IMG/VR virus record: IMGVR_UViG_3300030506_000048
Span: 1 to 25,519 of that record
Source of the DNA: a virus
Strand: one strand, 5' to 3'
DNA: 25,519 bases
The notes below the pieces were generated by a model. The model did no database searches, had not been told where the DNA came from, and saw nothing but the letters and a program-made list of their open reading frames with translations. Both the position numbers and the translations under genes were made by a program. Shown one piece after another: positions 3,639-24,378 of the stretch. The first letter of the stretch is position 1; every line of letters begins with the position of its first letter.

Positions 3639-3746
3639 TTAAAACAGAACATATCTGGGAGGGCTATAATTAAGTGGTCTAGCTTCATTCTTAGTCAACT
3701 TAATATCTGCCATTGTTGCTATATTATATAATATGTGAAGTTTCAT
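3639..3746 (-). CDS. Small protein, 35 aa, coupled to the Cys-triplet gene
   Basis: The start codon at 3746 overlaps the TGA stop of the upstream 125-aa Cys-triplet gene as ATGA, the same junction used throughout this block. The product begins MKLHILYNIATMADIKLTKN and ends in NYSPPRYVLF. A second in-frame ATG at 3713 would give a 24-aa peptide (MADIKLTKNEARPLNY...). The hydrophobic start could be a short membrane segment if the first ATG is used. I do not recognise the sequence. The ATGA junction is the main support, and the switch-like RNA follows 9 nt after the stop. Confidence 0.5.
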   Translation of the reverse strand: MKLHILYNIATMADIKLTKNEARPLNYSPPRYVLF

Positions 3747-4120
3747 AATTCTAATTCTAGCTTTCTATCATTAATATTGTATTCCTGTCTAATTTTAGCA
3801 ATTTTATTCTTTTTCTTAGATTTAATAGGCTGTGGTTTATAGTTTTTCTTAAAGTCTAATTCTATTGACTGTTTGCAACCTTTACAACCTATACAATTAT
3901 AACAAGCACTACAACGACTACAACTTCTACAACTATTACAATTAATACAATCACTACAATAACTACAATTAATACAACTACTACAATTACTACAACTACT
4001 ACAATCTCTACAATTATAACAATTAGTTAAGGTAGGTGAATATGTAGTAGCTAGTTCTTCAGTTATCCAACTATTACCGTTTTCGTCATACCATCTATCA
4101 GCTCTTTTTGTTAGTTTCAT
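3743..4120 (-). CDS. Cys-triplet repeat protein, 125 aa
   Basis: Three parts are visible. Residues 1-34 form the family cap (MKLTKRADRWYDENGNSW, then YSPTLTNC). Residues ~34-82 hold 17 cysteines at exactly every third position (CxxCxxC...) with mostly Ser, Asn, Asp and Arg between. A Lys-rich tail follows, ending in the family tag INDRKLELEL. The tail from KGCKQSIELDF onward is nearly identical to that of the 137-aa paralogue upstream. No other catalytic motif is seen. The regular Cys spacing suggests metal or Fe-S binding, or a disulphide-laddered solenoid; neither is proven. It overlaps genes on both sides by 4 nt. I do not recognise the family. Confidence 0.88.
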   Translation of the reverse strand: MKLTKRADRWYDENGNSWITEELATTYSPTLTNCYNCRDCSSCSNCSSCINCSYCSDCINCNSCRSCSRCSACYNCIGCKGCKQSIELDFKKNYKPQPIKSKKKNKIAKIRQEYNINDRKLELEL

Positions 4121-4299
4121 GATTGTGTTACTGAAATATAACGTAAAGAACTACCATTTAAAGCATAAGCGTAATTAAGTATTCTAACTTCATCATCACT
4201 TAAATCAACTATGGTAAGGTCTTCAAAATTTAATGTTCCATTTATCTTATCAACCAATATATAAGTATCATCGATTGTATTTTTATTGTTTATTATCAT
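4117..4299 (-). CDS. Small acidic protein, 60 aa, between two Cys-triplet genes
   Basis: The gene overlaps both neighbours by 4 nt (ATGA), so it is probably translated by coupling with the Cys-triplet genes on either side. The product is acidic, without cysteine and without a membrane segment (FEDLTIVDLSDDEVRILNY in the middle). I do not recognise it. Its position as a spacer between two near-identical Cys-triplet genes suggests either a partner protein or a passenger left by a duplication. Confidence 0.75.
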   Translation of the reverse strand: MIINNKNTIDDTYILVDKINGTLNFEDLTIVDLSDDEVRILNYAYALNGSSLRYISVTQS

Positions 4300-4709
4300 A
4301 GTTCAATCTCCAATCTTCTATCATTAATATTGTATTCCTGTCTAATTTTAGCAATTTTATTCTTTTTCTTAGATTTAATAGGCTGTGGTTTATAGTTTTT
4401 CTTAAAGTCTAATTCTATTGACTGTTTGCAACCTTTACAAATACTACAACCACTACAACGACTACAACTAATACAATTTCTACAATTACTACAATCACTA
4501 CAATTATAACAATTAATACAACTACTACAATTACTACAACTACTACAATAACTACAATTATAACAATCTCTACAACTACTACAATTACTACAACCTCTAC
4601 AATCATAACAATTAGTTAAGGTAGGTGAGTATTGAGTAGCTGATTCTTCAGTTATCCAACTATTATTATTTTCGTCATACCATCTATTATTTCTTTTTGT
4701 TATTGTCAT
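4296..4709 (-). CDS. Cys-triplet repeat protein, 137 aa
   Basis: The family cap comes first (NRWYDENNNSWITEE and SPTLTNC). It is followed by 21 cysteines at strict three-residue spacing (~residues 34-96). The Lys-rich tail and terminal tag (INDRRLEIEL) are almost the same as in the 125-aa paralogue, which points to recent duplication. The intervening residues are Ser, Asn, Asp, Arg and Tyr, giving a polar surface. The gene overlaps its upstream paralogue and the downstream 60-aa gene by 4 nt each. The Cys codons are almost all TGT. Metal binding or a Cys-lined solenoid is an inference. Confidence 0.88.
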   Translation of the reverse strand: MTITKRNNRWYDENNNSWITEESATQYSPTLTNCYDCRGCSNCSSCRDCYNCSYCSSCSNCSSCINCYNCSDCSNCRNCISCSRCSGCSICKGCKQSIELDFKKNYKPQPIKSKKKNKIAKIRQEYNINDRRLEIEL

Positions 4710-5122
4710 AAGTCTGGTTCCAACTTTCTATCATTAATGTCTAATTCTGGTCTTATCATAACTTCAGTCTTAATTTGAACTGGCTCTAGATGTGTTCCAT
4801 TATCACATTTATAACATTTTTTACAATCACTACAATCATTACAACTACTACAATCACTACAAACACTACAAACACTACAATTAATACAACCTCCACAACT
4901 ACTACAATCACTACAAACACTACAAACACTACAATTAATACAACCTCCACAAGTACTACAACCACTACAATTACTACAATCATCACAATAACTACAATCA
5001 TCACAATTACTACAATCTCTACAATTAGTTAGGGTAGGTGAGTATTGAGTAGCTGCTTCTTCTGATAACCAGCTATTATTGTTTTCGTCATACCATCTAT
5101 TGTTTATTTTTGTTATTGTCAT
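4706..5122 (-). CDS. Cys-triplet repeat protein with internal tandem duplication, 138 aa
   Basis: The cap (NRWYDENNNSWLSEEAATQ, SPTLTNC) is followed by 25 cysteines at every third residue. Within the repeat an 18-residue block, GGCINCSVCSVCSDCSSC, occurs twice in a row, matching an exact 54-nt DNA duplication (4841-4948). The C-terminus ends DINDRKLEPDL. It shares its cap and first repeats closely with the 150-aa paralogue at 6766-7218. It starts by ATGA overlap with the 88-aa gene and ends by ATGA overlap with the 137-aa gene. An 18-residue unit equals one coil of a left-handed beta-helix, which makes that fold worth testing. Confidence 0.88.
   Translation of the reverse strand: MTITKINNRWYDENNNSWLSEEAATQYSPTLTNCRDCSNCDDCSYCDDCSNCSGCSTCGGCINCSVCSVCSDCSSCGGCINCSVCSVCSDCSSCNDCSDCKKCYKCDNGTHLEPVQIKTEVMIRPELDINDRKLEPDL
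4841..4948. repeat. 54-bp exact tandem duplication inside a Cys-triplet gene
   Basis: Two identical 54-bp units (4841-4894 and 4895-4948) encode two copies of an 18-residue, six-cysteine block. The following sequence resembles the start of a third unit but diverges. This indicates repeat growth by slippage or unequal recombination in units of six Cys triplets. Confidence 0.9.
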
Positions 5123-5385
5123 AAGAAAGGGTCTAGATTTCTATCATTAATGTCTAAGATAGGTCGTTTTTCATTTGTTGTATCAATGCTAGGTTGCGCT
5201 GACCAATTTTTCTTATTTATAAAATTATAAAGTCCTTCACAATCACTACAATTAATACCATTACTACAATTATTACAATCATTACAACCACTACAATCCC
5301 AACAATCAATACAATCACTACAATTGTAGCAATCATTACAACCATCATGATTTATTAGTATTACTTTATAGTCATAAGTTTTCAT
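5119..5385 (-). CDS. Short, cap-less Cys-triplet protein, 88 aa
   Basis: This member lacks the WYDENNNSW cap. Instead it starts MKTYDYKVILINHDG and enters the CxxC repeat at residue 16. Eleven cysteines follow at three-residue spacing, with one position replaced by Gly (SNG where SNC is expected, a TGT-to-GGT type change). The C-terminal tag is present (DINDRNLDPFL). It is coupled by ATGA to the 138-aa paralogue downstream. It may be a divergent or decaying member, or a specialised short form. It starts 12 nt after the stop of the 95-aa gene. Confidence 0.82.
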   Translation of the reverse strand: MKTYDYKVILINHDGCNDCYNCSDCIDCWDCSGCNDCNNCSNGINCSDCEGLYNFINKKNWSAQPSIDTTNEKRPILDINDRNLDPFL

Positions 5386-5397
5386 ACTACTTCTTAA

Positions 5398-23620: not shown

Positions 23621-23668
23621 AATTAGTTTGAGTTTAATGTTTAGTTTGAGTTTTAGCTTAGTGTTAGT

Positions 23669-23836
23669 TCAGGAATATACTTCCCGTTCTTCGTTTCTTT
23701 TTGTTTCACCAGTTCCTTTACAGACTGGACATTTTTGCTTGTTTCTTTTGTTGGTTACGTGATGCTTGCCAACAATCCCTCTCCCACCACAATTAAGGCA
23801 GGTGGTTGGTACTTCGACTAGTTTTGTGTGTTTCAT
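23669..23836 (-). CDS. DnaJ-type zinc-finger peptide, 55 aa
   Basis: The frame from ATG 23836 reads MKHTKLVEVPTTCLNCGGRG, then CPVCKGTGET, that is, CxxCxGxG twice: one DnaJ-type zinc-binding unit. Many phages and bacteria carry such stand-alone fingers, whose role is unclear (protein folding or thiol chemistry is suggested by the DnaJ relation). It lies 4 nt downstream of a small membrane protein gene. Confidence 0.82.
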   Translation of the reverse strand: MKHTKLVEVPTTCLNCGGRGIVGKHHVTNKRNKQKCPVCKGTGETKRNEEREVYS

Positions 23837-23840
23837 GATT

Positions 23841-23978
23841 TTAGTGTATTACTCCAAAATGTTTAAGGCACCAGAAAATAAAGTAAATAACCCCGCACAG
23901 TATAGTTAAATAGATTGTTACTGTAATCACCCAACCTAAAATTAGGTATTTGATCGCTTTTTTCTTGTAGTCAAGCAT
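23841..23978 (-). CDS. Small membrane protein, 45 aa
   Basis: An ATG at 23978, 4 nt after the Cys-triplet gene, opens MLDYKKKAIKYLILGWVITV, then ILCGVIYFIFWCLKHFGVIH. One long or two short membrane segments follow a Lys-rich N-terminus. Spacing of 4 nt to genes on both sides supports it. It could pair with the membrane-anchored Cys-triplet protein. Confidence 0.72.
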   Translation of the reverse strand: MLDYKKKAIKYLILGWVITVTIYLTILCGVIYFIFWCLKHFGVIH

Positions 23979-23982
23979 AGTT

Positions 23983-24378
23983 TTAGTGTTTTGTTAAATA
24001 GTTTACTAACATAAGTATCAAGGTTCCTCCAAGCAATACAAGAAATAGTTTTAAAACGAAATAAGGATATTTATTTCGGTCCTGTATAGAATTGACGTTA
24101 TGATGATAATCTTTACGATCTCTACAATATGTACAACCACTACAATTATTACAATCACTACAATGACCACAATAACTACAATCAATACAACTACTACAAT
24201 TACTACAATAAGCACAACTACTACAACTACTACACCATCTACAATAACTACAACTACTACAATCACTACAACATCTACAATTAGTTAGGGTAGGTGAGTG
24301 TAGAGTAGCTAGTTCTTCCGTATCCCAACTATTATCGTTTTTGTCATACCATCTATTACCTCTTTTTGTTAGTTTCAT
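23983..24378 (-). CDS. Membrane-anchored Cys-triplet repeat protein, 131 aa
   Basis: The cap is present (NRWYDKNDNSWDTEELATL, SPTLTNC). It is followed by 18 triplets (one of them CC, so 19 Cys) to ~residue 86. A short charged linker leads to a C-terminal membrane segment (PYFVLKLFLVLLGGTLILML, residues ~104-125), making it a tail-anchored form. The family tag is absent. It is coupled by a 4-nt overlap to the C39-like peptidase gene upstream, which has its own membrane anchor, so the two may act together at the inner membrane. Confidence 0.88.
   Translation of the reverse strand: MKLTKRGNRWYDKNDNSWDTEELATLHSPTLTNCRCCSDCSSCSYCRWCSSCSSCAYCSNCSSCIDCSYCGHCSDCNNCSGCTYCRDRKDYHHNVNSIQDRNKYPYFVLKLFLVLLGGTLILMLVNYLTKH

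Follow-up and report, generated by a model that had tools for sequence, protein, structure and literature searches.

A family of cysteine-triplet phage proteins with hypervariable rods, proposed to act as beta-solenoid binding modules

The virus record IMGVR_UViG_3300030506_000048, whose 25.5 kb (25,519 nucleotides) are called the window below, carries eight genes for proteins in which cysteine recurs at every third residue along a rod (Table 1). An earlier note, made from the letters of the window, had listed these genes, and we recovered all the open reading frames (ORFs) at the coordinates that it gave, all of them on the minus strand. They encode 166 Cys in total, in agreement with the more than 160 counted there, by means of 158 TGT and 8 TGC codons. 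The register was as described, but the uninterrupted in-register Cys-x-x runs comprised 9-25 triplets, slightly different from the 11-30 reported. When the residues of each protein were shuffled 2000 times, the longest Cys run was always of 8 or fewer. One-residue slips occasionally interrupt the rods (e.g. SSWCDHC in the gene at 6766), the register being strong and not absolute, and the rod of the gene at 4706 contains an internal duplication of six triplets. In window-type phages, the position after Cys is occupied by S (44%), R, I, N or Y and the position before the following Cys by D, N, S, G or Y, with a favoured pairing of R/K and D/E within a single spacer (z=7).

Seven of the eight proteins share an N-terminal cap (NRWYDENNNSW...SPTLTNC), the exception being the cap-less product of 5119-5385. 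The C-termini were of the three kinds anticipated: a short conserved tag (genes at 3743, 4296, 4706, 5119, 6766 and 8283), an extra folded domain (17564) and a hydrophobic anchor (23983). This cap-rod-tail modularity, with a single Cys-lined rod bearing differing attachments, was supported by the window genes as well as by their relatives. The latter retain the cap, the Cys register and the tail, with intact frames in 14-15 genes per genome, which supports the translation of these frames.

The profile of PHROG_15341, an unnamed phage family to which neither a function nor a structure is assigned, matched all eight window proteins (E=3e-7 to 2e-17), and members are present in the cultured Campylobacter phages CP220, CPt10, CP20, CJLB-14 and CP21, those of CP21 containing 47 and 76 Cys. 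As to function and fold, the description of these genes as an undescribed system thus holds; as to detection, it does not. Beyond PHROG_15341, the PHROGs gave tail-domain families only, none with an assigned function, and no model of Pfam or NCBIfam matched the rod proteins (nothing in Pfam at E<=1, including its solenoid models such as the pentapeptide repeat PF00805). The literature searched contained no account of the rod fold, the hypervariability, the block shuffling or the shared tag, and a search for Cys at every third residue in phage proteins returned nothing relevant; the "cysteine-rich repeats" of PMC7379824, likened there to beta-defensins, look unrelated to the phage rods.

The window corresponds almost letter for letter to the right-hand portion of G001, a contig of 127 kb, but lacks a stretch of ~6.1 kb. 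G001 has 15 profile matches to the family, and the 14 rod genes retained by ORF calling hold 295 of the 677 Cys of the contig (44%) while accounting for 4.6% of its protein. Other metagenomic phages also hold relatives of the rod genes, and rod length across the family ranges from 7 to 54 triplets. Searching for a pattern of ten Cys codons in register recovered additional rods with different caps and tails, for instance a WHTCETTHCRAGW tail; many of the remaining matches look like chance frames in simple repeats. The bacterial species genomes and plasmids scanned with these queries yielded no relatives. A distant rod gene (L018, 4893-5700) has two in-frame TAG codons and may belong to a phage that decodes TAG as an amino acid.

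The rod family could be recognised from the window, as the earlier note did, but its strongest feature is not visible from one sequence: the non-Cys positions of the rods are hypervariable between near-clonal phages. Outside the rod genes, L042 and G001 share 99-100% identity (median for non-rod genes, 99.8%), which drops to 72-90% in places within the rods. In these rods, 98 of the 185 non-Cys codons are changed, 97 of them non-synonymously, and 97 of the 99 Cys positions remain Cys; tails are changed in two out of five. The second pair, G003 and G005, whose non-rod genes have a median identity of 99.66%, differs at 199 of 419 non-Cys rod codons and retains Cys at 215 of 218 positions, with changes in 72 of 298 cap codons and in 11 of 305 tail codons (294 of the 305 being identical in the alignment). 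In both near-clonal pairs, 47-53% of the non-Cys rod codons are thus changed and ~98% of the Cys positions kept. As a broad pattern, the cap-rod part is exchanged and the tail stays with its locus. The same rod gene is a variable spot inside a conserved stretch when the cultured phages CP220 and CPt10 are compared, so that the variation is more than an effect of metagenome assembly.

Blocks of four or more triplets are common to rods, including paralogs of the same genome, far beyond expectation: the four-triplet words common to different rods number 12 within G001 (0.03 expected) and 5 within G005 (0.23 expected). Recombination thus appears to be the origin of the rod variation. The window gene at 4296 is itself a fusion relative to G001, its 5' part corresponding to 106156-106533 and its 3' part to 99769-100182, with the ~6.1 kb between them lost. 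It may result from true recombination or from assembly collapse, the latter because both G001 genes have a near-identical stretch at this point. A diversity-generating retroelement is unlikely, since a search of eight records, up to 151 kb long and possibly fragmentary, gave no match to a reverse transcriptase (PF00078).

Several observations point to rods folded as beta-solenoids, with Cys inward and two residues of each triplet outward. The sole clear match among solved structures was the beetle antifreeze protein 1EZG (E=1.1e-4 for the profile and 7e-5 for one long rod), and two shuffles of this long rod matched nothing at all. Of the 12 residues in a coil of the beetle protein, positions 2, 5, 8 and 11 point inward and the rest outward (PMC8038014). 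In 1EZG itself, the residues found at exact three-residue intervals are C, S, C and A; the phage rods thus resemble a version of this lattice in which Cys fills each of the four inward positions. This lattice resemblance, together with the rank of 1EZG as best PDB match, could suggest ice-binding or antifreeze proteins, an explanation to which we give almost no credence: the TxT ice-binding ranks are missing (in window-type phages, Thr makes up 2.2% at C+1 and 1.0% at C+2), the rod surfaces are hypervariable and relatives are found in phages of poultry Campylobacter.

The tail domain of the gene at 17564 (phrog_20532 type) follows, in other phages, pentapeptide repeats (B025 gp51, EBPR gp3), hexapeptide repeats (phiAGATE, MA9V-2) or YdcK solenoids (BF766P1, ctn9Y15); the Cys rod therefore takes the place of a solenoid. 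The outward residues showed no consistent signal when tested for a period above one triplet, so that all triplets act as equivalent units. AlphaFold models were obtained for two window proteins (17564-18097 and 8283-8654) with 27-30 family sequences, and in both of these low-confidence models DSSP assigned isolated bridges near the cap that recur at a 12-residue spacing. The search of BFVD returned only the homolog of Campylobacter phage CP20.

No signal peptide is apparent in the rod proteins, and reduced or metal-bound Cys is therefore more likely than disulfide. CxxC is a common metal ligand pattern and Cys is the sole near-invariant feature of the rods, ~98% of its positions being kept, against about half of the other codons. 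The rods could thus be metal- or redox-active, with aligned thiols that coordinate Zn, Cu, Fe-S or toxic metals, or provide a thiol buffer in the course of infection, and with outward residues that drift because they hardly count. We consider this unlikely. Cys is equally compatible with a purely structural core, no metal-binding family of Pfam or NCBIfam matches the rods, and ~15 paralogs with locus-specific tails and a common tag exceed the needs of a buffer. About eleven matches to the radical S-adenosylmethionine (radical-SAM, Fe-S) family PF04055 are present in each of CP220 (L062) and CP21 (L064), their relevance to the rods being unproven, but none is present in five of the metagenomic records (up to 151 kb). 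For the same reason, we rejected the possibility that the rods are precursors of ribosomally synthesized and post-translationally modified peptides with a radical-SAM maturase.

The tag R-x-L-[DE]-x-[DEFYN]-L closes most of the rod proteins. The same C-terminus is found on four non-Cys proteins of G001 and on more than 20 small non-Cys proteins of its relatives. Outside the rods, it is located in one further window gene (Table 1), at 102675-102968, 104693-105019 and 105426-105659 of G001, and in L028, L029, L013 and L056. That the tag only reflects overlap with start or ribosome-binding sites was ruled out, as it is kept where the next gene lies 135-181 bp away. Its codons vary and it is retained without an overlapping downstream gene, which indicates that it is kept as protein, and we conjecture that it is a docking signal for a common phage partner. 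A tag common to many small proteins could also signal packaging. The rods would then be disulfide- or metal-cross-linked decoration of the virion or packaged proteins, a location that the earlier note had offered as an option and for which we found no support. It is improbable: the rod genes are neighbours of macro-domain, VWA and MYG1 genes in an accessory cluster on the minus strand, outside the structural block and distant from it, and the structural-region proteins of the same phage bear a different, N-terminal motif (FINGFIKAA). In other phages, the rod genes are found among small genes or divergent from apparent packaging genes.

We propose that these proteins are phage Cys-triplet beta-solenoids whose shuffled outer face serves as a set of intracellular binding modules, a proposal whose chances of being right or wrong we judge to be about equal. 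Each C-x-x triplet would place its Cys in the core and two residues outward, probably with four triplets (12 residues) per coil, and the variable residues would thus be exposed. With all triplets equivalent, rods of any length would share one lattice and could fold, and blocks could be exchanged without breaking the frame. The cap would start the solenoid, and the tail (short tag, folded domain or membrane anchor), mostly fixed to the gene position, would set the place of use. Homologous recombination among the ~15 paralogs and co-circulating phages would alter the outward residues and leave the Cys core constant. The tag would dock many rod modules onto the common phage partner, and the rods, as a conjecture, would bind variable host proteins, for instance defence or regulatory ones. 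A more specific version, in which phages would diversify a recombination-shuffled rod repertoire to track changing host defences and the rods, as a new triplet class of beta-solenoid, would keep an invariant core of four inward Cys per coil that may be filled with metal, is put forward only tentatively, as it is rather less probable.

Several results weigh against the binding-module proposal. Two other rods matched 1EZG less well (E=0.004 and 1.7), and the match benefits from Cys composition. Structure prediction, which had been suggested as a check, gave the bridges near the cap but a low confidence over the rod (predicted local distance difference test, ~40-50), and Foldseek comparisons of both AlphaFold models with the PDB were empty or non-significant. 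Because of this low confidence and the lack of a significant PDB structure in the Foldseek results, the fold is one that we infer from the solenoids that precede the same tail domain in other phages, the 1EZG match and the low-confidence models; likewise, 12 residues per coil are not proven by sequence because the outward residues show no consistent higher period. As for the variation, the 97:1 excess of non-synonymous changes was rejected as independent evidence of positive selection, since random draws from the rod codon pool are expected to yield 1-2% synonymous changes and the pool explains the ratio. Some cultured Campylobacter phages also have broken rod genes (L063, 6001-6288; L034, 3980-4276), interrupted by a stop codon in CPt10 and frameshifted in CJLB-14.

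The codon pool, the broken copies and the recombinogenic nature of repeat arrays would fit neutral instability, in which an array of 9-bp period slips and recombines unaided in accessory genes of low value and the variation has no function. This explanation also has little probability in our view. The frame is intact in all 14 called rod genes of G001, and the Cys register persists through changes in about half of the spacer codons, at times at constant rod length. Cys is conserved in mostly-TGT and mostly-TGC phages alike and is thus kept as protein.

Other features of the window are also listed in Table 1. A weak macro-domain match was found in the G001 cluster. The tRNA-Cys fits the Cys demand of the rods, but the link is no more than suggestive, because the 85-kb relative G005 has 15 tRNAs, none of them for Cys. 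A tmRNA and two tRNA-like stretches lie in its vicinity, and two further proteins are encoded near the last rod gene. In G001, about ten proteins encoded in and around the structural region (10-57 kb; L019, L020, L021) carry an N-terminal FINGFIKAA-like motif that resembles a capsid-targeting sequence.

Table 1. Cys-triplet genes and other features of the window.
Feature	Position	Strand	Description	Match
Cys-triplet gene	3743..4120	-	cap; 17-triplet rod (3875-4021); KR-rich tail ending NINDRKLELEL	phrog_15341, E=2e-14
Cys-triplet gene	4296..4709	-	cap; 21-triplet rod (4428-4610); tail ending NINDRRLEIEL	phrog_15341, E=9e-12
Cys-triplet gene	4706..5122	-	cap; 25-triplet rod (4805-5023); tail ending DINDRKLEPDL	phrog_15341, E=4e-15
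Cys-triplet gene	5119..5385	-	no cap; 9-triplet rod (5266-5340); tail ending DINDRNLDPFL	phrog_15341, E=3e-7
Cys-triplet gene	6766..7218	-	cap; rod of 24 triplets plus 6 past a one-residue slip (6853-7119); tail ending DCTNRLLEPDL	phrog_15341, E=2e-17
Cys-triplet gene	8283..8654	-	cap; 19-triplet rod (8391-8555); tail ending AQRLLEPDL	phrog_15341, E=2e-15
Cys-triplet gene	17564..18097	-	cap; 21-triplet rod (17798-17980); C-terminal folded domain (~17567-17770)	phrog_20532/phrog_7964 (folded domain)
Cys-triplet gene	23983..24378	-	cap; 18-triplet rod (24124-24279); hydrophobic C-terminal anchor	phrog_15341, E=4e-11
Non-Cys protein	8651..9178	-	ends in the shared tag (DEDRNLDPNL); 4-base overlap with next rod gene
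VWA	7474-8286			weak match
MYG1-family gene	16574-17560
tRNA-Cys (GCA)	18332..18405	-	only tRNA found by ARAGORN in the 127-kb G001
tRNA-like stretch	18529-18586	-	anticodon arm shortened	slightly under Rfam cut-off
tmRNA	18696-19107	-	not reported by ARAGORN	Rfam RF00023, 78 bits
tRNA-like stretch	~19266-19395	-	by eye; Leu-type D-arm, possible UCA anticodon loop
DUF7873 protein	22877-23620	-	near last rod gene	DUF7873
Protein	24375-24857	-	near last rod gene; QPFCGPATLSMFAAEG stretch, cysteine-peptidase-like by eye	no Pfam match

If the proposed fold is correct, the rods would be beta-solenoids whose repeat unit is very short, three residues with one Cys inward and two residues outward, and would offer a simple scaffold for design. 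If our reading of the variation is correct, phages would keep a stock of binding rods that is shuffled with no retroelement involved, and would do so at the loci where otherwise near-clonal phages differ most. The presence of members in cultured Campylobacter phages makes the fold, metal content, location and function directly testable.

The window genes can be compared with several known systems. They share with PHROG_15341 and its member CP220 gp032 (E=3e-53 to the family profile) the hidden Markov model match, the cap and the Cys triplets, but differ in their tails and in number, with 1-3 matching places in each Campylobacter phage versus ~15 genes in the 127-kb relative of the window. The beetle antifreeze protein TmAFP (PDB 1EZG) has a Cys-rich core and, in each coil of 12 residues, the three-residue spacing of inward positions that we propose for the rods; however, its Cys occupy only two of the four inward positions, whereas the phage rods have Cys at every third residue, and its TCT ice-binding face is absent from the phage rods, which have a hypervariable exterior and no apparent signal peptide. 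The pentapeptide, hexapeptide and YdcK solenoids of phages carry the same phrog_20532-type C-terminal domain after the repeat and, like the rods, repeat at short intervals and have a conserved class of residues that is assumed to point inward, although their periods are longer than the 3 residues of the Cys rods. Finally, variable-cassette systems, such as antigen variation by gene conversion and diversity-generating retroelements, likewise combine local hypervariation in almost identical genomes with fixed scaffold residues. For the rods, no reverse transcriptase, as expected with a diversity-generating retroelement, was found in the eight records, and the variation appears as block sharing among paralogs.

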